This document shows positions 496 through 19,263 of a DNA stretch of 64,000 nt, in pieces. Under the pieces are notes generated by a model that did not search any database, was not told where the DNA came from, and saw nothing but the letters and a program-made list of their open reading frames with translations. Position numbers and translations under genes: made by a program. This stretch comes from a virus, in IMG/VR virus record IMGVR_UViG_3300025070_000019, positions 32,642 to 96,641 of that record. One strand, given 5' to 3'. Each line of letters begins with the position of its first letter. The first letter of the stretch is position 1.

Positions 496-502
496 GAGTA
501 AT

Positions 503-2034: not shown

Positions 2035-2047
2035 GAAAGAAAAAATA

Positions 2048-2718: not shown

Positions 2719-2781
2719 CATCCACCTTTACATCTACGTACGGGTTGTAACATCCAACGTTTAAACATAGAAAGACCCTTT
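2719..2781 (+). other. Noncoding stretch inside the dnaE insertion
   Basis: 63 nt without an ORF of note, clearly richer in C and G than its surroundings. ACATCCA occurs twice, and GGGT at 2749-2752 could pair with ACCC at 2774-2777 across a TAACATCC-containing loop. This is where I would look for part of a ribozyme core, but I cannot show conserved group I P3/P7 elements. Confidence 0.3.
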
Positions 2782-2865
2782 ATGCAAAAAATTTGTATTG
2801 AACTTTTTTTAATTCCAGCAATAATTGCTTTTTTTAAAAAAATGAAAAAGAAAAAAAATGTATGA
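2782..2865 (+). CDS. Possible 27-residue membrane peptide
   Basis: The reading frame from the ATG at 2782 gives MQKICIELFLIPAIIAFF followed by the strongly basic tail KKMKKKKNV. That is one hydrophobic helix with a positive end, typical of a small inner-membrane peptide. Its stop overlaps the start of dnaE piece 2 (ATGTATGA), so its translation could deliver ribosomes to piece 2, which otherwise has only a purine-rich leader. No clear Shine-Dalgarno precedes it. Confidence 0.3.
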   Translation: MQKICIELFLIPAIIAFFKKMKKKKNV

Positions 2866-4450
2866 CAGTAGAAAAAATAATTTAAAACTCTTAGATGAGA
2901 ATATAATAGATGAAAGATACGATCAAGTCGATCCCGATTATTTAGCTTTTGAAGTTAAAATGGTATCAGATGAAGATTTAGAAAGAATTTTCTGGTTGTT
3001 AACTGAAAAAGTTAAATTTGAATCGAATCCATACAATTCTATCTTGCTTTATATTACAGGGATTACAGATGACTTTAATTTTGATAAAGCTAGATCTGAA
3101 ATGGTTGGTGGTGCTCCACCTGACATTGACATTGACCATGATGCTTTAGACAGAGAAGAAGCGATTCAATGGTGTGTTGATTACTGGGGTAGAGAAAATG
3201 TAGCTAATATTATTACTCATGGTACTTTTAAACCTAAAAGTTTAGCGCGGTCTTTTTATCGTATTACTGAAGGCAATAATGAAGACCTTAACGAGTTACT
3301 TAAAAAGATACCTATGCCTGTATATGGTAAAGAAGCTACATTAGATGAAATACTTGAAGTTGCACCTGAAATAAAAGAAGAAATACGATATGCAAACTTT
3401 TTGGAGTTTGCAGATCGTATTGAAGGTATGGTTTCTACATTTGGTATTCATGCTGCTGGTATTATTATATCTGACACTGAAGTTAATGATACTGTTCCTG
3501 TATGGAAAAATAGCAAGGCAGATCGTATTACTCAATATGATAAAGATGAATGTGAAGAACTTGGTTTGATTAAGTTTGACTTCTTAGGTATAGACACATT
3601 GTCTATTATTAAAGAATGCCGTCATTTAATTAAACATCATACTTTATTAGATATAGAACCATATGCAATTGAAGATGGAGATGAAAGAACTTATCAGACA
3701 CTTTGTAGTGGCTTGCTTACTGGCGTCTTTCAAATGGAAACATCTGGTACTGCTAAAAAACTAATACTTAGTATTCGTCCTAAATCAATAGAAGATTTAT
3801 CTGCTATATCAGCTTTGAATCGTCCAGGTCCGTTACAAGCAGGACTAGATAAACAATATATAGAGAACAAATATAAGGGCTCTCCTCCAAAAGATTTACC
3901 TAGTAATGTTGCTGAAGTATTACAAGCTAGTTACTGGACTTTAGTTTATCAAGAACAAGTAATGGATATATGTTCTAAAATTGCAGGATTCACTCCTAAA
4001 CAAGCTGATGATATTCGTCGTGCTATGGGTAAAAAGAAACATGAAGTATTAGAAAAATATAAAGAACAATTCATTGAAGGTTGTCAATCAATTGGTGGTC
4101 TTGCCAAAGATTATTCAAGTAATCTTTGGGATGATCTTGTCGGTTTTGCAGACTATTGTTTATTAGGTAATACTAAGATTCAAACTGTAGATGGTACTTT
4201 CACAATAAAAGACATAGTTGATAACTTTATTTCAGCAGAAGTATTTAGTTATAGTTTTAAAGATAAAAATTTTATTAAACAAAAAGTATCTCAATGGTAT
4301 AATCGTGGTGTCAAGCCAGTATATCGTTACACGTTAGAAGATGGTACTTATGTCGATTGTACAGAAGATCATAAGTTTTTAACAATAAATGATGATATGC
4401 TTGAAATTGATGCTATATTTGATAAAAATATAAAATTAAAGACTAAATAA
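2858..4450 (+). CDS. dnaE: DNA polymerase III alpha, piece 2 (catalytic palm, thumb, fingers) fused to split-intein N-half
   Basis: 530-residue protein. Residues 1-85 (MYDSRKNNLKLLDENI... to MVGG) have no counterpart in DnaE and are encoded within the insertion. Homology starts at APPDIDIDHD (residue 86), which carries the catalytic Asp pair. It continues through ANIITHGTFKPKSLARS, IKFDFLGIDTLSII (third catalytic Asp), ISALNRPGPLQAG, VYQEQVMDI and RRAMGKKKHEVL, and ends at VGFADY (residue 433). The remaining 97 residues, from Cys434, are an intein N-half. The exteins end at the point used by the cyanobacterial DnaE split intein. Without piece 3 this protein lacks the C-terminal fingers and the helix-hairpin-helix and OB modules. 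The start codon is uncertain if the insertion is spliced out. Confidence 0.93.
   Translation: MYDSRKNNLKLLDENIIDERYDQVDPDYLAFEVKMVSDEDLERIFWLLTEKVKFESNPYNSILLYITGITDDFNFDKARSEMVGGAPPDIDIDHDALDREEAIQWCVDYWGRENVANIITHGTFKPKSLARSFYRITEGNNEDLNELLKKIPMPVYGKEATLDEILEVAPEIKEEIRYANFLEFADRIEGMVSTFGIHAAGIIISDTEVNDTVPVWKNSKADRITQYDKDECEELGLIKFDFLGIDTLSIIKECRHLIKHHTLLDIEPYAIEDGDERTYQTLCSGLLTGVFQMETSGTAKKLILSIRPKSIEDLSAISALNRPGPLQAGLDKQYIENKYKGSPPKDLPSNVAEVLQASYWTLVYQEQVMDICSKIAGFTPKQADDIRRAMGKKKHEVLEKYKEQFIEGCQSIGGLAKDYSSNLWDDLVGFADYCLLGNTKIQTVDGTFTIKDIVDNFISAEVFSYSFKDKNFIKQKVSQWYNRGVKPVYRYTLEDGTYVDCTEDHKFLTINDDMLEIDAIFDKNIKLKTK
3107..3120. repeat. Hairpin at the downstream edge of the dnaE insertion
   Basis: GGTGG-TGCT-CCACC, a 5-bp stem that spans the point where DnaE homology resumes. 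Confidence 0.7.
3382..3421. repeat. 17-bp hairpin with one mismatch in dnaE piece 2
   Basis: AATACGATATGCAAACT / AGTTTGCAGATCGTATT with a 6-nt loop; 16 of 17 positions pair. Confidence 0.85.
4157..4447 (+). other. Split intein, N-terminal half (IntN), 97 residues
   Basis: Begins with the nucleophile Cys in FADY/CLLGNTKIQTVDG (block A). Block B reads GTYVDCTEDHKFLT and contains the expected T-x-x-H. It aligns along its length with the Npu/Ssp DnaE N-intein: same start, W-x-x-R-G near the middle (QWYNRGVKPVYRY versus QWHDRGEQEVFEY) and the same ending region (MLEIDAIF versus MLPIDEIF). It terminates at a stop codon with no endonuclease domain. The partner half lies at 18000-18113. Confidence 0.93.
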
Positions 4451-4461
4451 AAAGGTATCTT

Positions 4462-4833
4462 ATGGCTACTCATGCAGAATCTAAAAATCAAGGTACTATA
4501 ATTGTAGATAGTACACTTAATATAGAAAATATCAACAATAGTGATCAAGGTTTATCAGTAGGACAAGTAATGACTATTCTACCTAAATCTCATGACCTTT
4601 CATCTCAGTGTGATGGTAGCTTAAAAGATTTTGTTTTAAGTCCAGCAGTAGTTCAAAATACTTTAAACTTTTTTAGTTTATATTTAGACGGTGTATTGCT
4701 TACAAGATCAGCAGATTTAACAATTTCAGACTATGTAGTATCTTCTCATAGTCAAATTAATTTACATCAATCAATACCTGCACCTCCTGCAGGTTCTAGT
4801 TTAATTGCTATTTATATAGGAGTAGTAGGATAA
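4462..4833 (+). CDS. Small tail-fibre-type structural protein
   Basis: 123 residues, first gene after the intein N-half and only 11 nt behind its stop, so no terminator separates polymerase from fibre genes here. The C-terminal half has the pattern HDLSSQ..DG...FVLSP..., SLYLDGVLLT...DYVV..., LIAIYIG, a beta-rich fibre module that recurs at 12199-12504, 12507-12842 and at the end of the 16517-17896 protein. It ends TAATG, overlapping the next start. A virion location is inferred from context and the shared fold pattern; the function is not known. Confidence 0.7.
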   Translation: MATHAESKNQGTIIVDSTLNIENINNSDQGLSVGQVMTILPKSHDLSSQCDGSLKDFVLSPAVVQNTLNFFSLYLDGVLLTRSADLTISDYVVSSHSQINLHQSIPAPPAGSSLIAIYIGVVG

Positions 4834-7800
4834 TGGCTATTGATAGAAAATCAAGATTAAAACCAGGATCAATACATCCTACATTAGTAGATGAAACTAG
4901 TGGTTTACAAGTAAATCCTGATACAGGAATTTTAAATGCTACAAGTCTAAAAAATGAAATCAATACCTTTGATCAAAGATTTAACAACTTGCCTTGGAAA
5001 CAAGTTATTAATGTTCAAGAAGTATTTGACGATGTAGATATCACAGATGAAGCTACTCAAGTTTTAGAATTAAATCACATCCTTGTACCTGGCAATACAT
5101 ATTACAGTCGTACAGATAAAGCTTTTTATATATACATAAAAGATGTAACTAATATAGATTCTGCATGGCAACCTACAAACTGGATTGCAGCTAATAGAAT
5201 AGAAGGTTTTTTAAAAATACCTTTAACTTTAGATTATGCTGATAAAGAATATGTAAATACTCAAGTTTCACAGCTTGTAGGTGTAGATCAGCAAACTTTA
5301 CAAAGCATACAAGACTTATTAGATTACATTGCTAACAATCCAACAGCAAATATTATTGGCAGAATAACAGCTTTAGAAACTAACAAAGCCAATCGAAGTG
5401 AAATTTACACTCAAGATATTATTGATAATAAGCTTCAAACTATTAATACAAATATTGATTTACTATCTGATTCTATAATGACCCCTGCAAATTATTCTTG
5501 CGGCAATGACCCTCTAGACTCTGATAATAATATAAATGATTTATATAATAATACTAAAGTAAGAATAGTAGACGACTTTACCTTGAATTATTTAATTAAA
5601 CAAGGCGTAGAAATTTCAGAAACCCCACTAATAATAGATCAAGCACCAGTTCTTTTTACAGGTTTGCAACCTCAAAAGAACTACATGTTTAGCAGGCTTA
5701 ATAAAGTTGAAATAAATCGCAATTTATCTTTACAACAAGGCAATTCAGATCAAATAACATTCAATAATATTTGGTTTGCTTATGGATTTGAAGTTAAATC
5801 TACTTCTGCTTATGTAAAATTAACTTTTAATAATTGTTTGTTTGAAAATACATCCCTTGCAGGAGGGAGTGTATTTTCTTCTTTAGTTGAAGATGCAAAT
5901 GTAAATCGTATTGATTTAGAATTTTACAATTGTACATTTAACTTAACTAACAATTTATTAATAAAACGAGCAAATGTATCATTTGATAATTGTTTCTTTT
6001 TAGATTCTGCTAATAAGGATCAAATAAACTTATATAATAATTGCGACGCAAAAGTTATTAATTCTCATTCAGAATCTTGTATCAACATATACGACAATTC
6101 TTTACTTGAGTTACAAGGATGTAGTTTTAAGAAAACTACAGGATCTGAGTCTTACCTTGATATAAGAAATTTAGATGTCAACTTAAGTCCTTCATTAGTT
6201 AAATTAAAAGATATTACCTTTGACACTTATGAAACATTTACTAGTGATTATATATCTGGTACAGGTGAGTTATATTTAGATTATAATATAATAGAGCAAA
6301 ATTTAAGATCTGCTTTAGTAGATGGAACTAAGATTATAGTACCAAGAATATCCTCTATGTTAAATGCAGGCTCTGGTATTGAGTTAAATAAGTTTTTTCA
6401 ACCTTATGGTAGTGAAAACTTTTTCTATAATGATGAGTTCGCAAGAGATGCTATTGGAGCTATGATTACCTCAAGTACTCATAGCTCAGGTATTGTTTGG
6501 ACTTACAATGATAACAATAATAAACTTAGTCTTTCATTAGAAACATTATCATCTATAGATTTAGCAGATACCAATAACATTGCTTATAAAGATGAAGAAA
6601 ATGTATTTTCAGGAACTTTAAATGCTTTTCAAAACATAAGTACAAATATAATAACAAATTCTGCTACTTTATCTACAGGCAGTGTAAAATCAACAACAGG
6701 TAATATAGACACATTAGAAAGCGCAAACCTTACTACTACTACACAGTTGTCTACTGACAACTCTACAAAAGCAGCTACAACTGCTTTTGTACAAGAACGT
6801 TTTAGTAACTTAGTTGCACAATTCAATAGCACTGAACTTACTGAACTTTCAGATGTAACAATCACAAGTGCAACTTTATCTAGCAGTCAAGTTTTAAAAT
6901 ATGATTCTAATACTACTCAATGGATTAATGCTCAATTAGATTTTGATGACTTACTTGATACAGATAAAGTTGTTACAGAAAATGATTCTGTATTTAAATT
7001 AGGACAAATAGATCCTCCTACAGATCAAAGAGATAATGGTGCTATACCAGAAACAACTAGATATTTATCTACTAATCAAGTTTTAGCTTGGAATGGTATT
7101 GACAGAATTGATGAAGGTACAGGAGATGAAGATCCTAATGCTAAATATATACCTGTACTTATAAATGAAATAATTTTATATGCACAAGAAGCTAACAGTC
7201 AGCAAGGTGAAACAGTAGCAGGAGCTGGTATAATTACTATTGCTTCTACAGAAGGAGTAAGAGATGGCACAGATCTTAATAAAGCTGTTATACCTCCTTA
7301 CCTATATAAACATTATTTAAGAAGAGATGCATCTAATATTGATCCATCTGAAACTCAAAGTGCAAGAGATAACCTTGATATAGACTCTGAATTTGTAAAG
7401 ATTGATTTAAGCAATGCCACAACTGCTGCTAATTATAGAAGTCATATAGGCTTACCTGCTCTTGAAGCAGGTAAATATCTAGTTGGAACTGCTAGTAATT
7501 GGACAAATACAGATAGAACATTAGGTTATTTACAACCAGAAGGTTTAGATTTTACTTCCTCACCTAGTAGTAAATGGGATCTTTCACCTTCTTATTTTTA
7601 TAATGTTAAAACACCTGCTAATGAAACTAAATATGTTGTATTACCTGATATAAATTCTATGAATCCTCAAGGTGGTACAATCAGAATTAAAAAAGAAAAT
7701 GGTTCTACACATGCAACTGCTGGAACAGTTTCTATACGTGCTAATGACTCAGATGATGTTATTATAACTGCTGATAATGAAGTCATTACTTCTTCAGGAA

Positions 7801-8858
7801 GTAATGAAGCACAAATAGACATACTTGTTGCAGGTCATACTGTTGATTTATATGTAGGTTATAGCATTGCTTTGAATAAAAGAGTTTGGTATGCATTCGG
7901 TTATTACTATAATAGTGCAGATCAAACACAACCTGTACCAGTTATTGATTTAACTCAAGAAGCTACAGAAGATGCTATTATATCATTATTCAATCATAAT
8001 GATCATTCACCAGCACTATCTGTTAATTATGATGACCCGAATCATCAAGTAGAACTTAATTTAGCTTTTGCTTCTCAAGCTGAAGTTACAGCAGGCACTA
8101 TAGATAATTTACCTATTGCTCCTAATACCTTAAAATCAATCACAAATGATATAGATACTTCTATTACAGATTTAGAAACTTTAGCTAGCAATACATATTT
8201 AGCTAAAGATAGTAATTTAGATGATTTACAAGATGTACCTACAGCAAGAACTAATTTAGGTTTAGGTACTGCAGCTACATATAATGTTGGTATAAATTCT
8301 GGTGAGTTATTATTAAATGGAACATTACTACCTAATAAATTTACTTATTTTAACGGTACTAATTTAGTTACAAATGATTTACCTATAGCTACTTCAACAA
8401 TAAATGGTTTAATTCAAACAACAACTATCACAGATGTAATTACTACAAATGCTTTATCTGATACTAAAGCATTGACCCCTTATGATTTAAATGAAGCCAT
8501 AACTACTAATGTAGGTACTTCTACTATACGTGATAACATTTTAAGTTTAACCAATACTTTAAAATATGAATATACCAACAATGCTACTGTAAATGCTACA
8601 GTTACTAAGCATTATTCATTAAGAGCAGACCCTAATAGTATCGTTGTAAATTTACCAGATATTACAACTGTTGCTACTGGTGCAAGAATTAGTATTAAAT
8701 TAAAAAGATTAGTTAATAACAATACTGTTACAATAAACCCATATAGTAATCAAACAATAGATGACGACACATCTAGCTTTGTACTAGATGTTGTCGGTCA
8801 AGCAATTACTTTAGTAGCAGGTAATGATAATAATGAAACTGATTGGGAGATTGTATAA
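4833..8858 (+). CDS. Large tail fibre protein with a predicted beta-helix
   Basis: 1,341 residues. Residues 1-190 look like an attachment domain with a coiled-coil stretch (ITALETNKANRSEIY). Residues about 300-480 show repeated short N-C-x-F turns (FNNCLFENT, FYNCTFNLT, FDNCFFLDS, LQGCSFKKT) expected for a right-handed parallel beta-helix. Around residue 645 is TDNSTKAATTAFVQ, a motif common in phage fibres. The last 90 residues (HYSLRADPNSIVVNLPDI...TDWEIV) form a C-terminal domain shared with the fibre at 12853-14640. Probably a receptor-binding or baseplate-attached fibre. Several strong intragenic hairpins lie in this gene. Confidence 0.85.
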   Translation: MAIDRKSRLKPGSIHPTLVDETSGLQVNPDTGILNATSLKNEINTFDQRFNNLPWKQVINVQEVFDDVDITDEATQVLELNHILVPGNTYYSRTDKAFYIYIKDVTNIDSAWQPTNWIAANRIEGFLKIPLTLDYADKEYVNTQVSQLVGVDQQTLQSIQDLLDYIANNPTANIIGRITALETNKANRSEIYTQDIIDNKLQTINTNIDLLSDSIMTPANYSCGNDPLDSDNNINDLYNNTKVRIVDDFTLNYLIKQGVEISETPLIIDQAPVLFTGLQPQKNYMFSRLNKVEINRNLSLQQGNSDQITFNNIWFAYGFEVKSTSAYVKLTFNNCLFENTSLAGGSVFSSLVEDANVNRIDLEFYNCTFNLTNNLLIKRANVSFDNCFFLDSANKDQINLYNNCDAKVINSHSESCINIYDNSLLELQGCSFKKTTGSESYLDIRNLDVNLSPSLVKLKDITFDTYETFTSDYISGTGELYLDYNIIEQNLRSALVDGTKIIVPRISSMLNAGSGIELNKFFQPYGSENFFYNDEFARDAIGAMITSSTHSSGIVWTYNDNNNKLSLSLETLSSIDLADTNNIAYKDEENVFSGTLNAFQNISTNIITNSATLSTGSVKSTTGNIDTLESANLTTTTQLSTDNSTKAATTAFVQERFSNLVAQFNSTELTELSDVTITSATLSSSQVLKYDSNTTQWINAQLDFDDLLDTDKVVTENDSVFKLGQIDPPTDQRDNGAIPETTRYLSTNQVLAWNGIDRIDEGTGDEDPNAKYIPVLINEIILYAQEANSQQGETVAGAGIITIASTEGVRDGTDLNKAVIPPYLYKHYLRRDASNIDPSETQSARDNLDIDSEFVKIDLSNATTAANYRSHIGLPALEAGKYLVGTASNWTNTDRTLGYLQPEGLDFTSSPSSKWDLSPSYFYNVKTPANETKYVVLPDINSMNPQGGTIRIKKENGSTHATAGTVSIRANDSDDVIITADNEVITSSGSNEAQIDILVAGHTVDLYVGYSIALNKRVWYAFGYYYNSADQTQPVPVIDLTQEATEDAIISLFNHNDHSPALSVNYDDPNHQVELNLAFASQAEVTAGTIDNLPIAPNTLKSITNDIDTSITDLETLASNTYLAKDSNLDDLQDVPTARTNLGLGTAATYNVGINSGELLLNGTLLPNKFTYFNGTNLVTNDLPIATSTINGLIQTTTITDVITTNALSDTKALTPYDLNEAITTNVGTSTIRDNILSLTNTLKYEYTNNATVNATVTKHYSLRADPNSIVVNLPDITTVATGARISIKLKRLVNNNTVTINPYSNQTIDDDTSSFVLDVVGQAITLVAGNDNNETDWEIV
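5844..5878. repeat. 14-bp hairpin with one bulge in the large fibre gene
   Basis: GAAAATACA-TCCCT, loop TGCAGG, then AGGGA, a bulged G, TGTATTTTC. Confidence 0.85.
6745..6791. repeat. Two adjacent hairpins in the large fibre gene
   Basis: AGTTGTC-TACT-GACAACT (6745-6762), then TACAAAAGCAG / CTGCTTTTGTA, a perfect 11-bp stem with a 6-nt loop (6764-6791). Confidence 0.85.
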
Positions 8859-9367
8859 TGAGTCATAATTTAACAAAAGTTTTAAATCAACCTGGTTTAA
8901 AAGAAATTGATAATTCGAATCAATTTATAAATGTAACATTAGATACAGATAATGTAGATGAAGGTGTTACCAATCTTTATTATACAGATGCTCGTGGATT
9001 AGCTACTATGCGAGCTAATCCTATTATACAAGATCGGCATTTTTATACTGTTGATGAACTTGCAGTTAAACAAGGCGATTTATATTGGCGAATCATATCG
9101 CCAATAAAACTTTTGCAAGCTAAAGCTTATGTTGGTACACCATCAGTAGGTGCAGATATTTCTTTACATGTAATAAAGAATGATTCTACAGCACCTGAAG
9201 ATTTACTATATGATTTAGACATTACATCTACAACCAATGAAGTTTATATTGATGATGAATATACTTTAGCTGTAGGTGATTATTTACGTGTCGATGTAGT
9301 ACAAATTGGTACTACTACAAAAGGTTCAGACCTTATTGTATCTTTTAAATATCATTCAATACTTTAA
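8858..9367 (+). CDS. Fibre-associated protein, MSH-type adaptor or head
   Basis: 169 residues from the ATG at 8858, which overlaps the stop of the large fibre (TAATG); a start 15 nt upstream would lie inside that gene. It begins MSHNLTKVLNQPG and has DNVDEGVTNLYYTDARG, a fibre motif seen in many phages. The rest is beta-rich (LYWRIISPIKLLQAKAYVG...SDLIVSFKYHSIL), compatible with a receptor-binding head or chaperone-like adaptor. The gene pair fibre + MSH protein recurs at 12853-15275 with the same junction. Confidence 0.7.
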   Translation: MSHNLTKVLNQPGLKEIDNSNQFINVTLDTDNVDEGVTNLYYTDARGLATMRANPIIQDRHFYTVDELAVKQGDLYWRIISPIKLLQAKAYVGTPSVGADISLHVIKNDSTAPEDLLYDLDITSTTNEVYIDDEYTLAVGDYLRVDVVQIGTTTKGSDLIVSFKYHSIL

Positions 9368-9383
9368 TTAAGGATTATATATT

Positions 9384-11600: not shown

Positions 11601-11611
11601 GGATAAAGCTC

Positions 11612-12190
11612 ATGGCATTACATGGATTTGTAGATAGCGTAAAAGAAACATTATCTTTTCAAGTAAAAGATAATTATTTTGTAGTTAATAATCAAACTAG
11701 AGAGAAAAAACTTTTATCATTTGATTTAAAAGTATTTCTGTTTGATGAATTTTTATCTTCTCAAAACCACACTAATGTTAATTTTAATTCTTATAATTCA
11801 TTTGAACTATTTGAGAATGTAGAAGAAGAATCTTACTCTAACCAACCTACATATAATGGTTCTACTGGAGTAGTATCTAAGCTTATGCATTATGTAAATA
11901 AAGCATATTCTTATAGAAATAATACTTTAAGTTATACTACATCTATAGTATCTACAAATATAGATTTTCTTAAATCAACACAACCAACTTACACTTATGA
12001 TGAAAATGACATAAATTATTTTAGTAAAAACTTAATAACTTATATTTCAGGTGCTGATGTTGATATAAATATAGAGTATAACAAATCACAAGATTACGTT
12101 AACCAATACTTCGAAGAAGAACCTTCATCTAATGGAGGAGGTTCTGAAGAACCTCCAGAAGTTACTGGTTTAAAAGAATTTTGGGCATAG
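11612..12190 (+). CDS. Hypothetical structural protein
   Basis: 192 residues. The N-terminus (MALHGFVDSVKETLSFQVKDNYFVVN) is followed by a Tyr/Asn-rich region and a flexible tail SSNGGGSEEPPEV. No family recognised. A GGAGGTTC-TGAA-GAACCTCC hairpin covers the Gly-rich tail (12137-12156). The next start lies 8 nt downstream. The role is assumed structural from its place in the fibre cassette. Confidence 0.6.
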   Translation: MALHGFVDSVKETLSFQVKDNYFVVNNQTREKKLLSFDLKVFLFDEFLSSQNHTNVNFNSYNSFELFENVEEESYSNQPTYNGSTGVVSKLMHYVNKAYSYRNNTLSYTTSIVSTNIDFLKSTQPTYTYDENDINYFSKNLITYISGADVDINIEYNKSQDYVNQYFEEEPSSNGGGSEEPPEVTGLKEFWA

Positions 12191-12198
12191 GAGATATT

Positions 12199-12504
12199 AT
12201 GACTGTTGTTACTATATATAATTCTACAGTTACTACTACAAATTTAACTAACATTACAAATAGAGCGCGTTTAGTTACGCATGACTTAAGTAGTCAACTA
12301 ACTAATAACTCGTTGATATTTATTTTATCACCACCAGCAGTGATTGAAAGTGTTCAAGTAGTTGTAGATGGTCTTACTTTAAAGCCATCTACAGCTAATG
12401 TCGTTGGTGATTACAGTTTGAATAATGCGACTCAACTAGAGCTTCTATTTAATTCACCCTTATCTACTAGCTCTACTATATTAGCAATTTACGAAGAGGC
12501 ATAA
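12199..12504 (+). CDS. Small fibre-module protein
   Basis: 101 residues from the ATG behind AGGAGA; an upstream TTG at 12181 is in frame but overlaps the previous gene. The pattern THDLSSQLTNNSLIFILSPPAV, VQVVVDGLTLKP, DYSL..., ILAIYEEA matches the 4462-4833 protein and the next gene, so these are paralogous beta-modules. Probably a fibre subunit or adaptor. Confidence 0.65.
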   Translation: MTVVTIYNSTVTTTNLTNITNRARLVTHDLSSQLTNNSLIFILSPPAVIESVQVVVDGLTLKPSTANVVGDYSLNNATQLELLFNSPLSTSSTILAIYEEA

Positions 12505-12506
12505 AA

Positions 12507-12842
12507 ATGGCACGTATCACTAAAATAAAAAGAGATAGTTTAGATTTACCTGAAATATTTGCATCTGGTTATCAAACAGATGCAAATGGCAAAGTTATAA
12601 CTGGTTACAAATGGAAAACACATGTTCCATCTTTAAGTCAAGGTATTCATACACAGTTCCAACTACCAGACCCAGTATTAGTTGTTAATAACGTTGAATT
12701 AATATTTTTATTTGTAAATGGTGTTCAAATAACTGCAGATAAAATTTCGTTGCAAAGCCAAAATAGCTTAGTAATATACAGCAATACTGAATTCAGTATT
12801 GATCAAGATGATGTAGTTGAAATAAAATACGTAGCAGCTTAA
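12507..12842 (+). CDS. Small fibre-module protein
   Basis: 111 residues, starting 2 nt after the previous stop. It has the same layout as its neighbour (IHTQFQLPDPVLV, LIFLFVNGVQIT, VVEIKYVAA), that is, a beta-strand carrying an x-V-N/D-G-V turn and a C-terminal strand ending in I-x-Y. It contains a perfect 11-bp hairpin (12557-12587) and a perfect 20-nt palindrome (12782-12801). Confidence 0.65.
   Translation: MARITKIKRDSLDLPEIFASGYQTDANGKVITGYKWKTHVPSLSQGIHTQFQLPDPVLVVNNVELIFLFVNGVQITADKISLQSQNSLVIYSNTEFSIDQDDVVEIKYVAA
12557..12587. repeat. 11-bp perfect hairpin
   Basis: ATTTGCATCTG / CAGATGCAAAT with a 9-nt loop, in the small fibre-module gene at 12507. Confidence 0.85.
12782..12801. repeat. 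20-nt perfect palindrome
   Basis: CAATACTGAATTCAGTATTG, in the same gene, 41 nt before its stop. Confidence 0.9.
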
Positions 12843-12852
12843 GAGGTTTACA

Positions 12853-14640
12853 ATGAAAATTAAATCTAAACAACTAGAAGAAAATTTAGGTTCTCAATCT
12901 TCTCCATTTACATCTGTGCATTCTTCAGATTTTACTGGTAGCTTAACAGGACCTATTCGGTTTAAAGCTAAAAACGAAACAGGCGTTGCAGTAGCTAAGG
13001 GTGTTCCAGTTTATATAAATGGAGTTAGTGGTGATGTCCCAACCATTGCTCTTGCAGATTCCGATACAATAAATATGCCTTGTGTTGGTTTAACAGAATC
13101 TGCAGCTAATAATAATGCTGAAGTTTATATTGTAAGTTTCGGTAATCTTACAGGTTTAAATACAGCCGCTTTAGGTACAGATATTGTTGGAGATACTGTA
13201 TATATAAGTACAACAGCAGGTGCTTTAACTTTAACGCCTCCAGCAGGCAGTTCAAGTAAGTTACAAAATATAGGTCAAGTAATAAGAGAGCATGCAACAG
13301 ATGGCATTATTAAAGTTGGTGGTGCAGGCCGTACAGCTGCAACACCAAACTTAGATCAAGGTAAAATATTTATTGGCAATGCTTCTAATCAATCATCTTC
13401 AAGTGTTTATACATTACCCATTGCAGATGGTAGTAGTGGGCAAGTACTTACTACTGATGGTTCTGGAGCAGTTACATTTCAAGATGCTAGTGGAGGTGGT
13501 GGTAGTTCTGCTGCTGATGATATTACTGCTGGTGATGCAGCAGTTAATATCACTACAACATCTGGTAATATTACTATTGATGCTCAAGCAAATGATTCTG
13601 ATATCATATTTAAAGGTACAGATAATAATTCTGATATAACTATGTTAACTTTAGATGGTTCAGACTCTGGTACAGCTATATTTAATAATAATTTAAAACT
13701 TAAAAGTGATTACAGCGTTTTATATTTTGGTTCAGATGACGATGTACTTGTACAACATGACCCAGATGATGGTTTAAAGTTTCAAGTAAGTTATAGCAAT
13801 GAAAGTATTCGAGACCCAAGGTTTACATTTCAAACAACTTCTGGAAACAATTCTGTAGGCCCTTATCTAACTTTTATGCATAGTGGTAGTGACTCTAATA
13901 ATGATACTATTGGTAATCTTGAATTTAGAGCTGCTACTACTACTAGTAATATACTTTCTGGAACAACAGATTACGCTTTAATCAAAGCTAAAATTTTAGA
14001 TAGAACTAATGCAACTAGATCTGCAGAAGTTTCTATTGCTACTCAAAGTAATGGAACCTCTACTACTGCATTACAAGTTTACGGTAATTCATCTAATACA
14101 AATGTAATAACCAAAATAAATAAAATAGTTAATGTAGCTGATCATGATGGTACTACAGGTTTACAATTAGCAGGTACTTTAGTTACTACTACTGCTGCAG
14201 AACTTAACATTATGGATGGTGATACTTCAGCAACTTCTACTACTTTAGTAGATGCTGACCGTATTATAATTAATGATGCTGGAACAATGAAGCAAGTTGC
14301 ATTAACAGATGTTATGACATATGTTAATGCAAATGTATCTGGTGGTGGTGGATTTACATACACAGCAATCACATCAGCATCTTCACCCGTTGCAGGAGCA
14401 GCCTCAACTCATTATTCAGCAGATACATCAGGCGGAGCGATCACAATCAATCTTCCTGCTTTGAGTGGTGTGACGGCAGGCACTGAGATTCGAGTAAAAC
14501 TTAAAACAGCAGGAAATACATTGACTCTTGATGGTAATCTATCAGAGACAATCGACGGCTCAACCACATACACTCTCACAGTACAAAACCAAGCTGTCAC
14601 TCTTGTGAGTGATGGATCATCAAATTGGGAGGTCATCTAA
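12853..14640 (+). CDS. Tail fibre protein of marine-phage type, apparently chimeric
   Basis: 595 residues. The middle (ADDITAGDAAVNITTTSGN, DSDIIFKGTDNNSDITMLTL, SDDDVLVQHDPDDGLKFQ) is a style I know from cyanophage and pelagiphage fibres. A Gly-rich linker (NVSGGGGF) near residue 500 is followed by a C-terminal domain (HYSADTSGGAITINLP... to ...SNWEVI) homologous to the end of the 4833-8858 fibre. At that linker (base about 14350) the DNA becomes richer in G and C, which suggests the C-terminal domain was exchanged by recombination. The stop overlaps the next ATG (TAATG). Confidence 0.82.
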   Translation: MKIKSKQLEENLGSQSSPFTSVHSSDFTGSLTGPIRFKAKNETGVAVAKGVPVYINGVSGDVPTIALADSDTINMPCVGLTESAANNNAEVYIVSFGNLTGLNTAALGTDIVGDTVYISTTAGALTLTPPAGSSSKLQNIGQVIREHATDGIIKVGGAGRTAATPNLDQGKIFIGNASNQSSSSVYTLPIADGSSGQVLTTDGSGAVTFQDASGGGGSSAADDITAGDAAVNITTTSGNITIDAQANDSDIIFKGTDNNSDITMLTLDGSDSGTAIFNNNLKLKSDYSVLYFGSDDDVLVQHDPDDGLKFQVSYSNESIRDPRFTFQTTSGNNSVGPYLTFMHSGSDSNNDTIGNLEFRAATTTSNILSGTTDYALIKAKILDRTNATRSAEVSIATQSNGTSTTALQVYGNSSNTNVITKINKIVNVADHDGTTGLQLAGTLVTTTAAELNIMDGDTSATSTTLVDADRIIINDAGTMKQVALTDVMTYVNANVSGGGGFTYTAITSASSPVAGAASTHYSADTSGGAITINLPALSGVTAGTEIRVKLKTAGNTLTLDGNLSETIDGSTTYTLTVQNQAVTLVSDGSSNWEVI

Positions 14641-15275
14641 TGAGTCATAATAAAATAACAGTAGCAAGTCAAAGCCCTGATTCAAATGGTGATGTTTCGA
14701 TTGATGTTGCCAATATGTCAGATGTAAATATTAGTACACCATCCGACAATCAAGTATTGCAATATTCGACAGCATCAAGCCAATGGCAAAATCAAACTCT
14801 TTCAGTCGGGTCAGGCTTGCTTGTTCTAGGTCAAGGGGATTCGGACGCATACAGTAATAGCGGTGCTAGTTCAATGAGTGGAGACGTTTATTTATATGCT
14901 CCCTCAGCTTCTATTGTAAATACTCTCGGTGCAACAATCACTAAATATCTTGCCACAGATTGGGTCACATCCATCACATTGCCTCCTGGTAATTATCAAG
15001 CTATGATCACTTATAGAGTTGAGTTTTCAGCAAGTGGATATTTCAATTACGGATTAACAGACACAAGCGGAACAACAGAGTATACATCAAGAGCATATAT
15101 CGGGGAAGATAGGACAAACATTGATAATGCGGCTAGTACTGCTCTGGGCTATTTTGAATTAGCCTCATCAACTACAGTTATTTTGCATAATAACGCTTCC
15201 TCTGGCGTTGCTTCAGTAGCAAGCCAAGGAAACACCCCTGCCGAATTTAGTACTTTAATGATTCGGAGCGTGTAA
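14640..15275 (+). CDS. MSH-type fibre tip or receptor-binding protein
   Basis: 211 residues from the ATG overlapping the fibre stop. It starts MSHNKITVASQSPDSNGDVSIDV, similar to the starts of the 8858 and 15277 proteins. The C-terminal 130 residues are a beta-rich jelly-roll-like head (YLATDWVTSITLPPGNYQ... to ...STLMIRSV), reminiscent of C1q/TNF-like phage tips; that likeness is by pattern only. The DNA is distinctly richer in G+C than the rest of the window (25 of 60 in 14941-15000). Confidence 0.7.
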   Translation: MSHNKITVASQSPDSNGDVSIDVANMSDVNISTPSDNQVLQYSTASSQWQNQTLSVGSGLLVLGQGDSDAYSNSGASSMSGDVYLYAPSASIVNTLGATITKYLATDWVTSITLPPGNYQAMITYRVEFSASGYFNYGLTDTSGTTEYTSRAYIGEDRTNIDNAASTALGYFELASSTTVILHNNASSGVASVASQGNTPAEFSTLMIRSV

Positions 15276-15276
15276 A

Positions 15277-15882
15277 ATGTCTCATTTATTAAACTCTGTA
15301 AATAATGTTAAAAGCTCAAGTGATGGAAATATAAATCTAGGTTTATCTAGTTTAATGAGTTCACCCTCTGATACTGATGTAGTGGGTATTGATGGCGGTG
15401 GAAGTTCTAAGAAATTGGCAATAGGAACTAATGTTGGGGATCTTGCTATGTCTTATGTAGTCCAGTCGGCAGGCTGGGCAGGTTCAGGTACGATCACAGA
15501 GGGATATAATACTTATTTAAGAGGGAGTAGTTGTACAGTAGAGGAAAACACATCAATTATTACAAGACATGCCGCAGGAGGGGCTTCTTGGTTGCAGGGC
15601 TGGACTTTAGTAGCGGGCAATTATTTAATGTTAGCAAGCTGGGGGTTTAGTTTGTCAAGCGGTGGGAATTGTAATGTACAGTTTTATAATGCGACCACTG
15701 CGGCATATGTGGGGCCTAAAATGCACTTTATAACAGGCAATTTTAGCAATCGATTGATTTATCATGCTAACATCTCTAGTAGTACTCGATTCGAGTTGAG
15801 AGCGCGTGATGTTGTTAATAATGTAAATTTATTTGATGCGTCAAGTATGTTCGCATGTACAATACAAATATTTAAAGTTTAA
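15277..15882 (+). CDS. MSH-type fibre tip, paralogue of the preceding gene
   Basis: 201 residues, starting 1 nt after the previous stop. The N-terminus MSHLLNSVNNVKSSSDGNINL matches the previous gene's motif, and the C-terminal head has the same outline (WTLVAGNYLMLASWGFSL, ending CTIQIFKV). Likely an alternative or duplicated receptor-binding tip. It lies within the compositionally distinct block. Confidence 0.68.
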   Translation: MSHLLNSVNNVKSSSDGNINLGLSSLMSSPSDTDVVGIDGGGSSKKLAIGTNVGDLAMSYVVQSAGWAGSGTITEGYNTYLRGSSCTVEENTSIITRHAAGGASWLQGWTLVAGNYLMLASWGFSLSSGGNCNVQFYNATTAAYVGPKMHFITGNFSNRLIYHANISSSTRFELRARDVVNNVNLFDASSMFACTIQIFKV

Positions 15883-15899
15883 AAAATTAGGAGTTTATT

Positions 15900-16262
15900 A
15901 TGTATGTCACTGTAAAATGTAATCAATCTTTAACTGTTGGTCAAGTCGTATCTTATAGTTTATCGAGTAATCAATGGGAGGTTGCAAACTCAATCTCTGA
16001 AGAGATCTCAGTAGTCAAAGATATGCCCTACAACAACGGAACAGATGAGAATCCTGAATATGTTTGTAAAATTCTTGTCTCTGGTCCTGTTCGTTGTTTC
16101 GCTTCAAGAGATATACCAGTGCAAGGAGGTCAATTGAATATTGAGAACGGAAAAGTATTTGTTGATAATTCGCTCACAGAATCAACAGGATTCATCGTGC
16201 CCAAAGACATCAATGAAGCTGATCGAGTTGTTGACTCTTCTGTTGTTATTGTTTTGAGGTAA
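15900..16262 (+). CDS. Small beta-rich structural protein
   Basis: 120 residues, start behind TAGGAG. The sequence (MYVTVKCNQSLTVGQVVSYSL, ILVSGPVRCFASRDIPVQGG, VDSSVVIVLR) looks like a small all-beta decoration or fibre-base domain. It is the last gene of the GC-richer block. No family named. Confidence 0.6.
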   Translation: MYVTVKCNQSLTVGQVVSYSLSSNQWEVANSISEEISVVKDMPYNNGTDENPEYVCKILVSGPVRCFASRDIPVQGGQLNIENGKVFVDNSLTESTGFIVPKDINEADRVVDSSVVIVLR

Positions 16263-16264
16263 TC

Positions 16265-16333
16265 ATGACAATTTATGTAAATGTGATATTTCAAATTCTT
16301 GGCCTGTTTAGCACTGTAATCGATGTGATTTAG
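16265..16333 (+). CDS. Possible 22-residue hydrophobic peptide
   Basis: An ATG 2 nt behind the previous stop, with GAGG 7 nt upstream, opens a 22-codon frame MTIYVNVIFQILGLFSTVIDVI. The composition fits a single membrane helix. It may be a real micropeptide or the remnant of a gene cut by recombination at the end of the GC-richer block. Confidence 0.3.
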   Translation: MTIYVNVIFQILGLFSTVIDVI

Positions 16334-16428
16334 TATGTATCAAACATGATCAACAGTTTACGGAATGGATCTTCTGCTACAGATAAATTTTATAATATTA
16401 ATTTATCAACATACTCAATTTAATATAT

Positions 16429-16436
16429 TATAAATA
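16429..16436 (+). promoter_or_regulatory. Candidate T4-type late promoter (TATAAATA)
   Basis: Exact match to the T4-type late -10 sequence, 81 nt upstream of the start at 16517 and in a noncoding gap. Chance matches occur in this A+T-rich DNA (for example inside genes at 18299 and near 26003), so the intergenic position is the main support. It would imply a gp55-like late sigma factor elsewhere in the genome. Confidence 0.4.
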
Positions 16437-16472
16437 GTAAATTGAAATTATCTTTTACAATAAATTATTATA

Positions 16473-16490
16473 TTTTTGGTTAACCAAAAA
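16473..16490 (+). terminator. 18-nt perfect palindrome, possible terminator or operator
   Basis: TTTTTGGTTAACCAAAAA, a perfect palindrome 27 nt before the next start. With its A and T flanks it could end transcription weakly in either direction or bind a dimeric regulator. It lies downstream of the TATAAATA element, so it would be in the leader of that transcript. Confidence 0.35.
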
Positions 16491-16516
16491 ACAAAACCCT
16501 AATTAGGAGACACCTC

Positions 16517-17896
16517 ATGGCGTTAATTAAAGGTAAACAATTAAGTAATAATACTCTTGCACTTACAAAAGTTGCACTTCAATCAGAAGCTGAAATTCTT
16601 GTTGCAGATTCTAATGGTCAATTACAAGCAGTAAGTCTTGGAACTGATGCTACTATTACAGCAGCAGGTGCTTTAACAATTGCTAATGATGCAATTAACA
16701 GCGCAAAAATTGCTAACGGTTCTGTTACATTTGCTAAACTCAATAGCGGCTCTTATTCAACAGATTTAAGTTCATCTGCTACTGCGTCTGAACTTGCTCG
16801 TGCTGATGCAGCTAAAGCTTATGCTGATTCAATTTTAACTTCAGCTCAAACTTATGCTGATAATGTTGCTAATGGTCTTGATATCAAAGCTTCTGTTAGA
16901 TTAGCTTCTACTGCAGCTTTAACGTTAGCAACAGACGTTGAAAATGGAGACAGCTTAGATGGTATAGCATTAGTTACAGGTGATCGTATTCTTTTAAAAG
17001 ATCAAGCTGATGCAACTGAAAATGGCATCTATGTAGTTGCTGCATCAGGTGCTCCTTCAAGAGCAGCTGATGCAGATCAAGGTGATCTAACAGGTGGTGC
17101 ATTCTTTTTTGTAGAAGAAGGTACTGCTAATGCTGACAATGGTTTTGTTTGTACAACTAATGGTACTCCAACATTAGGTACAGATAATATTGTTTTTGCT
17201 CAATTTAGTGGTGCAGGTAGTGTTAGTGCAGGTGCAGCTTTAACTAAAACTGGTAATCAACTAGATGTAAATGTAGATGATTCAACTATTGAAATAAACA
17301 ATGATACTTTACGGATAAAAGATGCAGGTATTACATCTCTTAAATTAGGTAATCTTTCTATTACACCTGCTAAGATTTCTCCTACTGTTGCCGGTGATGG
17401 TATTGCAGGTGGTAATGGTGTTGCACTTTCAGTAAGTTTAAATGAGTTAACTGCTGCAGTTTTGGATGTATCTGCTGATAGTATTGCATTCATTGATGCT
17501 ACTGACAGCTCAACAAAGAAAGAAAGTGTTGCAGATTTTGCTACTGCTCTAGCAGGTTCTGGTCTTACAGCTTCTTCAGGTGCTTTAGCTGCTGCCCGTC
17601 TTTCATCTAATGATCAATTTGAAACAGCTAGTGCTACTAGTTCGAATGGAGATAGTGCTGGTGTAACTATTGCAGCAACTCCTGAAGGTATGGTTCAAAT
17701 TTTTGTAAATGGATTACAACAAGAATTAGGTCAAGGCGTAAAAACTAAAGATTGTTACTTCAGTGCTGATGGTGGAAGTACAGCAAGAGCAATTACTGCA
17801 ATTGCTAGTGGTGACACATTGTACTGGAATGGAAGTGTTGCAGGCTATCAACTTGATACTAATGATAAAATTAGCATGGTATATGAAACTGCATAA
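16517..17896 (+). CDS. Tail fibre protein (SAKIANGSVTFAKL / LLKDQADATENGIYVV type)
   Basis: 459 residues, start behind AGGAG. The N-terminal half has INSAKIANGSVTFAKL and a coiled-coil stretch (ADAAKAYADSILTSAQTYAD). Residues 125-235 (GDRILLKDQADATENGIYVV, TGGAFFFVEEGTANADNGF) are a module common in phage tail fibres. The last 80 residues (MVQIFVNGLQQEL... to ...ISMVYETA) carry the same strand-turn module as the 4462, 12199 and 12507 proteins. It has its own upstream control region and is followed by three hairpins, so it may be separately expressed. It is the last gene before dnaE resumes. Confidence 0.82.
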   Translation: MALIKGKQLSNNTLALTKVALQSEAEILVADSNGQLQAVSLGTDATITAAGALTIANDAINSAKIANGSVTFAKLNSGSYSTDLSSSATASELARADAAKAYADSILTSAQTYADNVANGLDIKASVRLASTAALTLATDVENGDSLDGIALVTGDRILLKDQADATENGIYVVAASGAPSRAADADQGDLTGGAFFFVEEGTANADNGFVCTTNGTPTLGTDNIVFAQFSGAGSVSAGAALTKTGNQLDVNVDDSTIEINNDTLRIKDAGITSLKLGNLSITPAKISPTVAGDGIAGGNGVALSVSLNELTAAVLDVSADSIAFIDATDSSTKKESVADFATALAGSGLTASSGALAAARLSSNDQFETASATSSNGDSAGVTIAATPEGMVQIFVNGLQQELGQGVKTKDCYFSADGGSTARAITAIASGDTLYWNGSVAGYQLDTNDKISMVYETA

Positions 17897-17938
17897 TCAT
17901 TTATTTCATAAATGATTAAAAAACACTTGGCTGTTTTT
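17895..17938 (+). repeat. Two tandem hairpins at the end of the fibre cassette
   Basis: AATCATTTAT-TTC-ATAAATGATT (10-bp perfect stem, 3-nt loop; 17895-17917) begins within the stop codon. AAAAACA-CTTGGC-TGTTTTT (17919-17938) follows directly and ends in a T-run. They may protect the 3' end of the fibre mRNA or add to termination. Confidence 0.65.
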
Positions 17939-17956
17939 AAATAAACTGTATTTAAT

Positions 17957-17986
17957 AAAGCGTCTTAATTGACGCTTTTGTTTTTT
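17957..17986 (+). terminator. Rho-independent terminator before dnaE piece 3
   Basis: AAAGCGTC-TTAATT-GACGCTTT, a perfect 8-bp stem with a 6-nt loop, followed by a T-rich tail TGTTTTTT. It is placed just upstream of the ribosome site GAGG for dnaE piece 3, so piece 3 needs readthrough or a promoter within the last few bases of this region. Confidence 0.85.
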
Positions 17987-17999
17987 GAGGTATGTAAAA

Positions 18000-18113
18000 A
18001 TGAAAATTGTAAAAAAAGAATTTCTTGGTAACCAAGAAGTTTACGATATCGGTGTGTCTTCTAACGAAGATGCACATAACTTTTTGCTAGATAATAACTT
18101 GATAGCAAGTAAT
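18000..18113 (+). other. Split intein, C-terminal half (IntC), 38 residues
   Basis: MKIVKKEFLGNQEVYDIGVS followed by SNEDAHNFLLDNNLIASN, then +1 Cys in CFN. It matches Npu DnaE IntC (MIKIATRKYLGKQNVYDIGV...DHNFALKNGFIASN/CFN) including VYDIGV, the block F His-Asn and the terminal Asn needed for cyclisation. The turn before the block F His is about three residues longer (SSNEDAH versus ERDH). It begins at its own Met, as expected for a naturally split intein. Confidence 0.94.
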
Positions 18114-19253
18114 TGTTTTAACAAAGCGCATTCAGTTAGCTATTCTATGTTAACTTATATTAGTGCTTATCTAAAAACTCACTACCCTGTTTACTTTTTT
18201 ACTGCTTTGATGTCTACTCGATCTAAAACTTTACAACCTAAATCATGGGCTGTTAAAGCTCCTGAATATGTATTGGAAGCAAAAAAATTTAATATAGATA
18301 TAAATACTCCTAGTGTTAATAAATCAGGTTATGAATTTACTATCTTTAATAATGAAGTATACTTTGGGTTAAATGCTATAAGAGACGTAGGTAAAACAGC
18401 AGCTAAAAGTATTATCAAAGCGAGAAAGAATGTCCCATTTAAAGACATTCTTGATTTTGTCGAACGTGTTAACTTGCAAAAAGTAAATACTAAAACTTTT
18501 GAAGCATTAGCCTATGCAGGTGCTTTTGATAGAATGGGTTACTCTCGTAAAGAGCTTATAGAAAAAACTTCTGAAATATATTCCTATATAAGAGATTTAG
18601 AAGATTATCGACAACGTAAAATAGATGCAGCTGCTAGACGAGAAAAAAATGCTCGCAATACACCTTTAATAGAAAGACGTAACTTTTTACGTAAAGAAAT
18701 AAAAAAAATAAACAATCGTATCAATAAGGATAAAGCTAAAGAAGAAGACTTTGAGAATTTGACTGTGTATGAAAATGAACTAGAACCTTTAGAAGACTTA
18801 GGACTTAAGAAACTAGTTGATCTTAAAGAAAAAGAAAGACCTGTTTTTCCTGAGTTAAAACGCAATAGTTCTGTTGAGTTAGATCTTCAGGATATAACTC
18901 AACAAGCACACTACATTGGCTGTTACTTAGGTGGACACCCTTTGCAATTTGTACAAGTAAGTGGTGTTTCTCAAATTATTTCATTAGATATCGGTGAAAT
19001 TGATACAATAGCTGGTGTAATATTAGGCATTCGTGAGATTACTACTCGTAAAGGCAAAAAAATGGCTGTTATAGATGTAAACGACTCAACGAATACTACT
19101 GAAATAGTTTGTTTTCCTTCAACATGGTCTAAGATAAATAATATGAATTTAAAAACTGGTGATATAGTTAAAGCTAAAATCAAAGTAGAAGAGACAGATC
19201 CAGACTATAAAATGATATTATTCAGCTTAACTACTGTTGATCAAAATCAATAA
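18000..19253 (+). CDS. dnaE: Split-intein C-half fused to DNA polymerase III alpha, piece 3
   Basis: 417 residues from the ATG at 18000 (a TTG 15 nt earlier is in frame but lies on the ribosome site). Residues 1-38 are the intein C-half. From Cys39 the DnaE sequence resumes: CFNKAHSVSYSMLTYISAYLKTHYP. It continues with AIRDVGKTAAKSI (helix-hairpin-helix region), FEALAYAGAFD, a Lys/Glu-rich helical insert at about 195-265, YLGGHPL, and an OB-fold (IAGVILGIREITTRKGKKMAVIDV). Trans-splicing with the 2858-4450 product would restore a contiguous catalytic core. The gene follows a terminator and 13.5 kb of fibre genes, so its expression must be balanced with piece 2 separately. Confidence 0.94.
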   Translation: MKIVKKEFLGNQEVYDIGVSSNEDAHNFLLDNNLIASNCFNKAHSVSYSMLTYISAYLKTHYPVYFFTALMSTRSKTLQPKSWAVKAPEYVLEAKKFNIDINTPSVNKSGYEFTIFNNEVYFGLNAIRDVGKTAAKSIIKARKNVPFKDILDFVERVNLQKVNTKTFEALAYAGAFDRMGYSRKELIEKTSEIYSYIRDLEDYRQRKIDAAARREKNARNTPLIERRNFLRKEIKKINNRINKDKAKEEDFENLTVYENELEPLEDLGLKKLVDLKEKERPVFPELKRNSSVELDLQDITQQAHYIGCYLGGHPLQFVQVSGVSQIISLDIGEIDTIAGVILGIREITTRKGKKMAVIDVNDSTNTTEIVCFPSTWSKINNMNLKTGDIVKAKIKVEETDPDYKMILFSLTTVDQNQ

Positions 19254-19263
19254 GGATCAATTT

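Follow-up and report, generated by a model that had tools for sequence, protein, structure and literature searches.

The dnaE locus and its split intein

The DNA analysed here, in the following called the window, comprises 64,000 nucleotides (positions 32642-96641) of a 96,641-bp IMG/VR virus record from an uncultured phage; the record is possibly incomplete. It carries a gene for the replicative polymerase DnaE that is interrupted by the two halves of a split intein (Table 1). The N-half forms the C-terminal end of the open reading frame (ORF) 2858-4450, and the C-half is held by ORF 17985-19253, the likely start of which is at 18000, an MKI start common to three relatives. Twelve ORFs, all on the + strand, fill the 13.5 kb between the halves and are referred to as the cassette. 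Records are labelled by G-numbers, with G000 for the window record and the other numbers for relatives from IMG/VR.

Table 1. Positions of the dnaE pieces, intein halves, cassette genes and hairpin in the window (aa, amino acids; nt, nucleotides)
Feature	Position	Strand	Remarks
DnaE piece N1	766-2034	+	Pfam PHP 1.2e-48; DNA_pol3_alpha positions 2-102 of 260; lineage-specific tail of ~20 aa
Two small ORFs in the N1/N2 break	2018-2476, 2473-2718	+	No Pfam match above cut-off
DnaE piece N2 (N-extein)	2858-4156	+	Lineage-specific head of ~85 aa, catalytic PDIDID palm part, fingers
Split-intein N-half, 97 aa	4157-4447	+	Cys1, block B TEDH; directly after LVGFADY
Cassette gene 1, 123 aa	4462-4833	+	Modelled domain similar to nozzle/fibre proteins of phage tails
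Cassette gene 2, 1341 aa, long fibre-type	4833-8858	+	Relatives in the G003, G007 and G024 cassettes
Cassette gene 3, possibly minor-tail-type	8843-9367	+	Weakly matches a minor tail PHROG (1.7e-5 over 22 residues)
Cassette gene 4, 738 aa	9384-11600	+	phrog_20698 (unknown function) 1.8e-9; relatives in other cassettes
Cassette genes 5-7	11612-12190, 12181-12504, 12507-12842	+	No PHROG match; 12181-12504 belongs to the gene 1 family
Cassette gene 8, 595 aa	12853-14640	+	No PHROG match
Cassette genes 9-11	14625-15275, 15277-15882, 15900-16262	+	Gene 9, PHROGs of unknown function; gene 10, none
Cassette gene 12, 459 aa, virion/tail-fibre type	16517-17896	+	PHROG matches (see text)
Terminator-like hairpin + T-run	17957-17986	+	-10.5 kcal/mol, 21 nt before the C-half ATG
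Split-intein C-half, 38 aa	18000-18113	+	MKIVKK...IASN with terminal Asn; then CFNKAHS
DnaE piece C (C-extein)	18114-19253	+	CFNKAHS, HhH, OB fold

Searching the halves against PDB chains returned DnaE split inteins as the best matches. For the N-half (phmmer, 4lx3_A, E 5.9e-17) we take these to be of the Npu type; the first non-DnaE intein appeared at E 1e-3. The N-half also matched the Pfam model Intein_splicing (5.8e-7, under the family cut-off), and the C-half stretch matched DnaE intein C-fragments (PDB 4lx3_B, E 2.4e-5) as well as DnaE C-exteins. The insertion point lies between Y and CFNK of DnaE, which is the DnaE-type site, and Cys1, the block B TxxH motif, the terminal Asn and the +1 Cys are all present. 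By site, residues and similarity, the intein is a member of the DnaE split-intein family. Among the records compared, N-halves are 38-53% and C-halves 47-68% identical to those of the window. Mature DnaE is probably made by trans-splicing of N2-IntN and IntC-C, where IntN and IntC denote the intein halves.

The polymerase itself is encoded in three pieces. PHP, palm PDxDxD, fingers, HhH and OB fold are all recognizable, but they are spread over three ORFs and do not form one chain. N2 matched the Pfam fingers (3.4e-45) and palm (1.3e-35; DNA_pol3_alpha positions 100-260) and piece C matched HHH_6 (1.2e-28) and tRNA_anti-codon (OB fold, 1e-8); with the intein half counted, piece C is 62-64% identical in three relatives. 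The second break, at 2034/2858, is free of an intein and cuts the palm before the catalytic PDIDID motif, so that two chains must build the palm even after splicing. In three contiguous viral DnaE proteins 39 residues separate GRGS from PDxDxD; at this point the pieces of the window carry the added N1 tail and N2 head, which are conserved in the aligned relatives (N1 was aligned in six records). N1 was found in 13 of the 21 records searched, always as an ORF apart from N2. A structural model of N2 made with AlphaFold2 (AF2) reached a mean predicted local distance difference test score (pLDDT) of 42.8, too poor for use. Two candidates for the N1/N2 break were rejected: Rfam over 1900-3000 gave nothing intron-like, returning just a microRNA-family match with E 0.75, and by eye no Cys/Ser/Thr + Asn joint pattern of a second split intein held across relatives.

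Further interruptions were noticed in relatives. The N1/N2 gap of G030 contains, besides small accessory ORFs, an ORF of 858 aa that matched neither Pfam nor PHROG, and that of G004, G027 and G028 a 120-129-aa reverse-strand ORF with an LGRPA motif, virion-like by eye and also without Pfam or PHROG match. N2 of G007 is interrupted by a group I intron (RF00028, 66.8 bits versus a cut-off of 50); this intron and an opposite-strand 324-aa ORF, nuclease-like by eye and lacking a Pfam match, correspond to 10897-11219 and 11221-12195 of L011. In L006 (6737-7552 and 7374-7647) recA is broken between GVMYGN and PETTSGG, with a group I intron match below cut-off (E 1.1e-5) and an ORF weakly matching HNH and intron-encoded nuclease PHROGs; the second part of recA stands alone in L011 near 6821, and recA of G002 has a group I intron match.

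The contents of the gap were characterized by scanning 91 proteins from 12 records; the full set of 103 gap proteins also includes 11 near-copies and one protein truncated at a contig end, which were omitted. At E<=0.001 Pfam recognized collagen (five), M15 peptidase (two, with two models), LamG-like (one) and Ig-like (one) domains and nothing else. No Pfam nuclease was among these 91 proteins in a scan that could miss a distant one; neither a homing endonuclease between the halves nor spread by an endonuclease of the element's own could be recognized on this basis. PHROG matches at E<=1e-5 comprised 91 families, of which the 25 commonest are tail fiber, tail, collagen-like minor tail, virion structural or of unknown function, and none of these 25 is named nuclease. 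Gene 12 of the window matched head decoration (1.4e-27), virion structural (6.8e-20) and tail fiber (7.1e-18) families, along with families of unknown function (from 1.1e-34). The cassette contains members of tail-fibre or virion families, though several of its genes have no match.

The most widespread gap family is that of gene 1, with 20 members of 97-140 aa in 11 of the 14 records clustered. The AF2 model of gene 1 (pLDDT 76) gave the nozzle-fibre complex 8vbx_S as best Foldseek match in the PDB (E 2.1e-3, none at E<=1e-3) and 27 matches at E<=1e-3 among the BFVD viral models, including T7 and Vi06 tail fibres. This likeness to nozzle/fibre and tail proteins recalls the T7-type tail fibre attachment region; in contrast to the latter, the gene 1 proteins form a separate family, the structural match is weak, and the phage has a Baseplate_J gene (Pfam match 3.3e-15), which suggests a contractile tail.

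A previous sequence-only reading of the window had placed DnaE split-intein halves at the same coordinates, with exteins joining as VGFADY + CFNKAHS, and had seen virion genes in the gap where small endonuclease genes would be usual. This description holds, as splice residues and PDB matches agree, both flanks are DnaE by Pfam, the twelve gap ORFs include PHROG virion and tail fibre matches, and Pfam recognized no endonuclease in the 91 gap proteins. The reading also had the polymerase in two ORFs, which is right for the intein split at Y/C and misses the separate N1. Also absent from it are the presence of the layout in related phages, the empty site of G004 and the cassette turnover and exchange described below. 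It had named an intact dnaE elsewhere as a finding that would overturn it; in the 96.6-kb record no second dnaE was found, PF07733 matching only the two N pieces and the C-half query giving one match. Likewise, no PolA or PolB match was obtained in any of 10 records searched, several of which are fragments; G001 is among those without a match.

Conservation of the layout and the uninterrupted site

A scan of viral contigs for the pattern N/CFNKAH gave 27 loci, which were sorted into 19 with a stand-alone intein C-half upstream of a DnaE C-extein, two with a contiguous intein (L034, L039) and six chance matches. Together with the window record, 20 records with a stand-alone C-half were available. 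In 13 of these, window included, the N-half piece is on the same contig, each time on the same strand and upstream of the C-half. The remaining seven gave no N2 match; their contigs measure 6.7-36.6 kb and end 0.02-11.1 kb upstream of the C-half. As G030 is a near-copy of G016 (100% over 18,001 bp) and G026 of G021 (99.8%), the 13 records reduce to 11 distinct ones. A phage-type gene is broken by nearby split-intein halves in all 13, with a gap of 2.8-13.5 kb and 3-17 ORFs, and all of the 101 gap ORFs lie on the dnaE strand (simple longest-ORF caller). The layout is real and conserved across related phages and is no artefact.

The uninterrupted site GFADYCFNKAHS is present in the relative G004, where N2 and C form a single 807-aa ORF reading ELVGFADYCFNKAHS, N1 again being separate. 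The genes that follow this ORF correspond by eye to those found downstream of the C-half in the window (metallophosphatase, nuclease-type and IMPDH-type). Intein and cassette were hence either inserted together as a precise unit or removed just as precisely from G004; trees group G004 with the split carriers G027 and G028, which is compatible with gain as well as with loss. In another phage group, the same site of DnaE holds an ORF-contiguous intein that by eye has HNH-like residues (G031, C1:19650-21428, and likewise G032), so that the cassette occupies the place where inteins elsewhere carry an endonuclease. The distant viral DnaE L012-L017 are without this split; in L012 (from 9914) and L014 (from 9839) an intein-like stretch was seen by eye after FAEYGFNKS(V), a few residues beyond this site.

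Outside the set of carriers, all DnaE matches in a phage collection were below 60% identity, and the baseplate protein had no match there. An alignment of C-halves searched against bacterial and archaeal genomes gave two loci, both cyanobacterial, and a scan with the C-half protein alone gave one locus, by eye an intein-like stretch in a different gene. A further scan with the C-half alignment returned 17 loci, comprising nine known carriers and eight distant ones; the seven distant loci inspected are DnaE without this intein. G001 and G030 align as circular permutations of each other, for which reason G001 (161.8 kb) is probably near complete; N1, N2 and C each gave a single match in G001.

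Turnover and exchange of the cassette

Identity between the first cassette protein and the corresponding proteins of four relatives is 17-38%, whereas the two DnaE pieces of split relatives share 62-69% identity. On these sequence comparisons, cassette content turns over while the flanking dnaE stays conserved. Three kinds of cassette were distinguished. Kind A has a 1,244-1,341-aa fibre (G000, G007, G024 and G003, the last cut at a contig end), kind B is collagen-like (G001, G002, G016, G021 and near-copies) and kind C consists of many small genes plus a peptidase (G017, G019). The cassettes of G027 and G028 differ from all three, and some gene families cross kinds.

Evidence for exchange comes from G002, a kind B record that is placed inside the G003/G007/G024 clade of the DnaE-N2 tree with support 100/99. 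The approximately unbiased (AU) test on N2 rejects kind B as a single clade (p 1e-62). For the C-extein the test gave p 0.0004 with G018 and G020 as outsiders, although G020 sits among the rows of kind B. Among the records compared G002 is closest to G007 (N1 82%, N2 82%, IntN 59%, C 73%), with an IntC equally near G007 and G001 (74%), but the best matches of the five G002 cassette genes are all of kind B. DNA similarity between G007 and G002 stops at 5691, 9 nt beyond the end of IntN, and the next block starts from 17866, the start of IntC.

A second case was found between G001 and G030, which share 48 blocks of at least 300 bp. Within the gap, a fibre block of 4,242 bp is 90.0% identical, compared with 69.6% for the block over N2, IntN and the first cassette genes and a mean of 71.2% (maximum 82.0%) for the 46 blocks outside the gap. 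We take these values to indicate that fibre DNA was recently transferred within the gap. The idea that the gap is an exchange site for fibre modules rests on these two cases, G002 and the G001/G030 block.

Possible explanations and comparison with known systems

As a whole, the data are best explained by a polymerase in pieces that is trans-spliced and whose intein gap holds a turning-over, sometimes mobile fibre cassette; we give this explanation a probability of roughly three in four. N2-IntN and IntC-C would meet and be joined by protein trans-splicing at Y/C, giving a junction that reads LVGFADYCFNKAHS, and the spliced product would work together with N1, the separate chain that carries PHP and part of the palm, presumably through non-covalent association. 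Since the two halves function in trans, the DNA separating them can vary in length at no cost to the enzyme. The tail-fibre-type cassette would take the endonuclease seat of a fractured gene and be swappable. The sequence comparisons above show that it turns over and at least sometimes moves between phages, most likely via homologous recombination in the conserved flanking dnaE and in shared fibre parts.

A more far-reaching proposal, which we put forward tentatively and at somewhat less than even odds, is that a split intein in an essential polymerase provides a permanent docking site for host-range genes with guarded cassette exchange. The dnaE halves would serve as recombination anchors on both sides, trans-splicing would render the cargo harmless, and an exchange losing or mismatching a half would kill the polymerase. 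Under this proposal, fibre modules would be swapped whole and locked to an essential gene, since a lost or mismatched half would be lethal.

Several points weigh against trans-splicing around a mobile fibre cassette. Splicing is inferred from sequence alone. For most C-halves the Asn/Cys end was demanded by the scan pattern and therefore cannot count as an independent test; only G000, G001, G002 and G007 were recovered without this requirement. In some pairs, the ratio of nonsynonymous to synonymous substitutions (dN/dS) is higher for the N-half than for the N-extein. Once G018 and G020, whose cassettes are untyped, are omitted, the C-extein AU test gives p 0.075 and grouping by cassette is not rejected; the tree test is also partly post hoc, as cassette kinds were assigned after the IntN sequences had been seen. 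Loss of DNA similarity at the borders would also be expected of a gap that merely gathers rapidly evolving genes. The two exchange cases concern relatives and not the cassette of the window, in which six of the 10 cassette proteins scanned (10 of 12) had no PHROG match at E<=0.01.

The alternative that survives best, though we consider it unlikely, is an ordinary fractured gene that formerly had a homing endonuclease, in which fibre genes landed once in the vacant seat and persist by descent without advantage. The contiguous intein of G031 and G032 with its HNH-like residues at the same DnaE site would fit such an origin. In addition, the carriers and G004 form one DnaE clade, and the cassette kind tracks the N2 tree closely, with five changes against a minimum possible of four. 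On the other hand, the gaps of G017/G019, G027 and G028 hold largely different cassettes which share only some gene families, and G002 and the G001/G030 block indicate replacement after the first insertion.

The arrangement might instead be a timing device, in which synthesis of DnaE-C would require transcription to get through the fibre block or past an attenuator, active polymerase then appearing late or with the virions. Strong hairpins with a T-run between the last long cassette gene and the C-half were present in eight of 20 records, the window among them, in a survey made without shuffle control (for G023 only 17 nt upstream were available). In G000, G001, G018 and G020 the hairpin and T-run end 19-23 nt before the C-half start, which leaves little room for a promoter after the hairpin. 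In G007, G022, G024, G027 and G029 a distance of 8-17 nt separates the end of the preceding ORF from the C-half, and the hairpins are weak, the best reaching -3.7 to -7.7 kcal/mol. Both spacings would suit a C-half that depends on transcription from upstream. However, the arrangement varies among relatives: in G002, G016, G025 and G030 the hairpin lies 260-294 nt before the C-half, ahead of a small gene, and the remaining records follow no single pattern (in G015, a hairpin of -16.6 lies within an ORF, 168 nt upstream). The variable spacing indicates that transcription logic differs between relatives. An internal promoter is also possible, and in known phages replication enzymes are needed before virion genes. 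We therefore regard a timing function as improbable.

The sequence-only reading had likewise taken the cassette as late and the polymerase as tied to late expression, which could not be confirmed, as no late-promoter motif was identified in the window. The candidate late promoter TATAAATA was rejected; by eye it did not occur in the 60 nt before any of 17 reverse-strand genes examined. Its 36 matches in the window compare with 24.5 +/- 5.2 expected, a number reached in one of 100 shuffles. Sigma-70-like sites are not enriched in the window (93 versus 111 +/- 12), and terminator-like sites in window 1-20000 number 15 versus 6.3 +/- 2.5 in shuffles.

It is very improbable that the halves have ceased to splice and that DnaE either functions as fragments held together non-covalently or is on the way to being lost. 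The polymerase does already tolerate the intein-free N1/N2 break. Nevertheless, Cys1 and TxxH are kept in 12 of 12 N-halves (12 records, near-copies omitted), and dN/dS stays below 1 in every computable pair: it is 0.24-0.59 in five of five pairs for the N-half and 0-0.29 in eight of 10 pairs for the C-half, dS being saturated in the other two. For G017/G019 the values are 0.18/0.56 (N-half) and 0.012/0.42 (C-half). The negative PolA and PolB searches in 10 records speak against a loss of DnaE as well. Finally, an assembly chimera, conceivable for a window that is a single metagenomic contig and considered in the sequence-only reading as a source of error, is refuted by the relatives, 13 records (11 distinct) having the same layout.

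Cyanobacterial DnaE split inteins (Npu, Ssp) interrupt the same protein at the same insertion site, are split as well and show clear sequence similarity to the halves described here. In cyanobacteria the two parts of the split dnaE are far apart in the chromosome, whereas the phage pieces share a strand and are separated by a few kb that hold one kind of cargo. Split inteins are usually viewed as remnants of homing elements. Dassa and co-workers reportedly described, in 2009, fractured phage-type genes with split-intein halves a short distance apart and a homing endonuclease gene between them. In the phages studied here, a phage replication gene is likewise broken by split-intein halves with something in between.

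For Pseudomonas phage MIJ3, a PolB with a split intein has been described in which an HNH homing endonuclease lies between the parts; compared with that description, the gap analysed here differs in having 3-17 tail-fibre-type ORFs and no Pfam-recognized nuclease. Intein-broken genes in ocean metagenomes are mentioned in a survey of phage ribonucleotide reductase genes, and a ribonucleotide reductase split into two working peptides has also been described. The N1/N2 break resembles the genes-in-pieces left by intron and freestanding homing endonuclease insertions, of which the group I intron matches in G007 dnaE and G002 recA are reminiscent; the fibre cassette differs from these in being neither intron nor recognized endonuclease. 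No report of virion genes between split-intein halves was found in a literature search that covered few subscription papers.

Related phages retain a split intein in the replicative polymerase, and the virion genes that it encloses change rapidly. They offer a concrete example, open to testing, of an intein that supports gene exchange, along with a naturally occurring set of diverged DnaE split inteins of use in engineering and a polymerase that would need to be rebuilt from three chains. If the docking-site proposal is true, an intein has been converted from a homing parasite to a guarded site of cassette exchange.

Some other genes were noticed. PurA/PurZ-like, PurB-like and IMPDH/GMP-reductase-like genes are located at 3789-4856 and 4849-5949 of L003 and at 21671-22768 of the window. 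The PurA/PurZ-like matches are all below cut-offs, with the PurZ model weaker than PurA; this phage purine gene set might bear on modified adenine. At 28430-28849 of the window, a 139-aa ORF without Pfam or NCBIfam match has an ELHGRQHY stretch which by eye is Vsr-nuclease-like. It is followed at 28857-29492 on the + strand by a Clp-protease-like gene (Pfam 9.4e-26).

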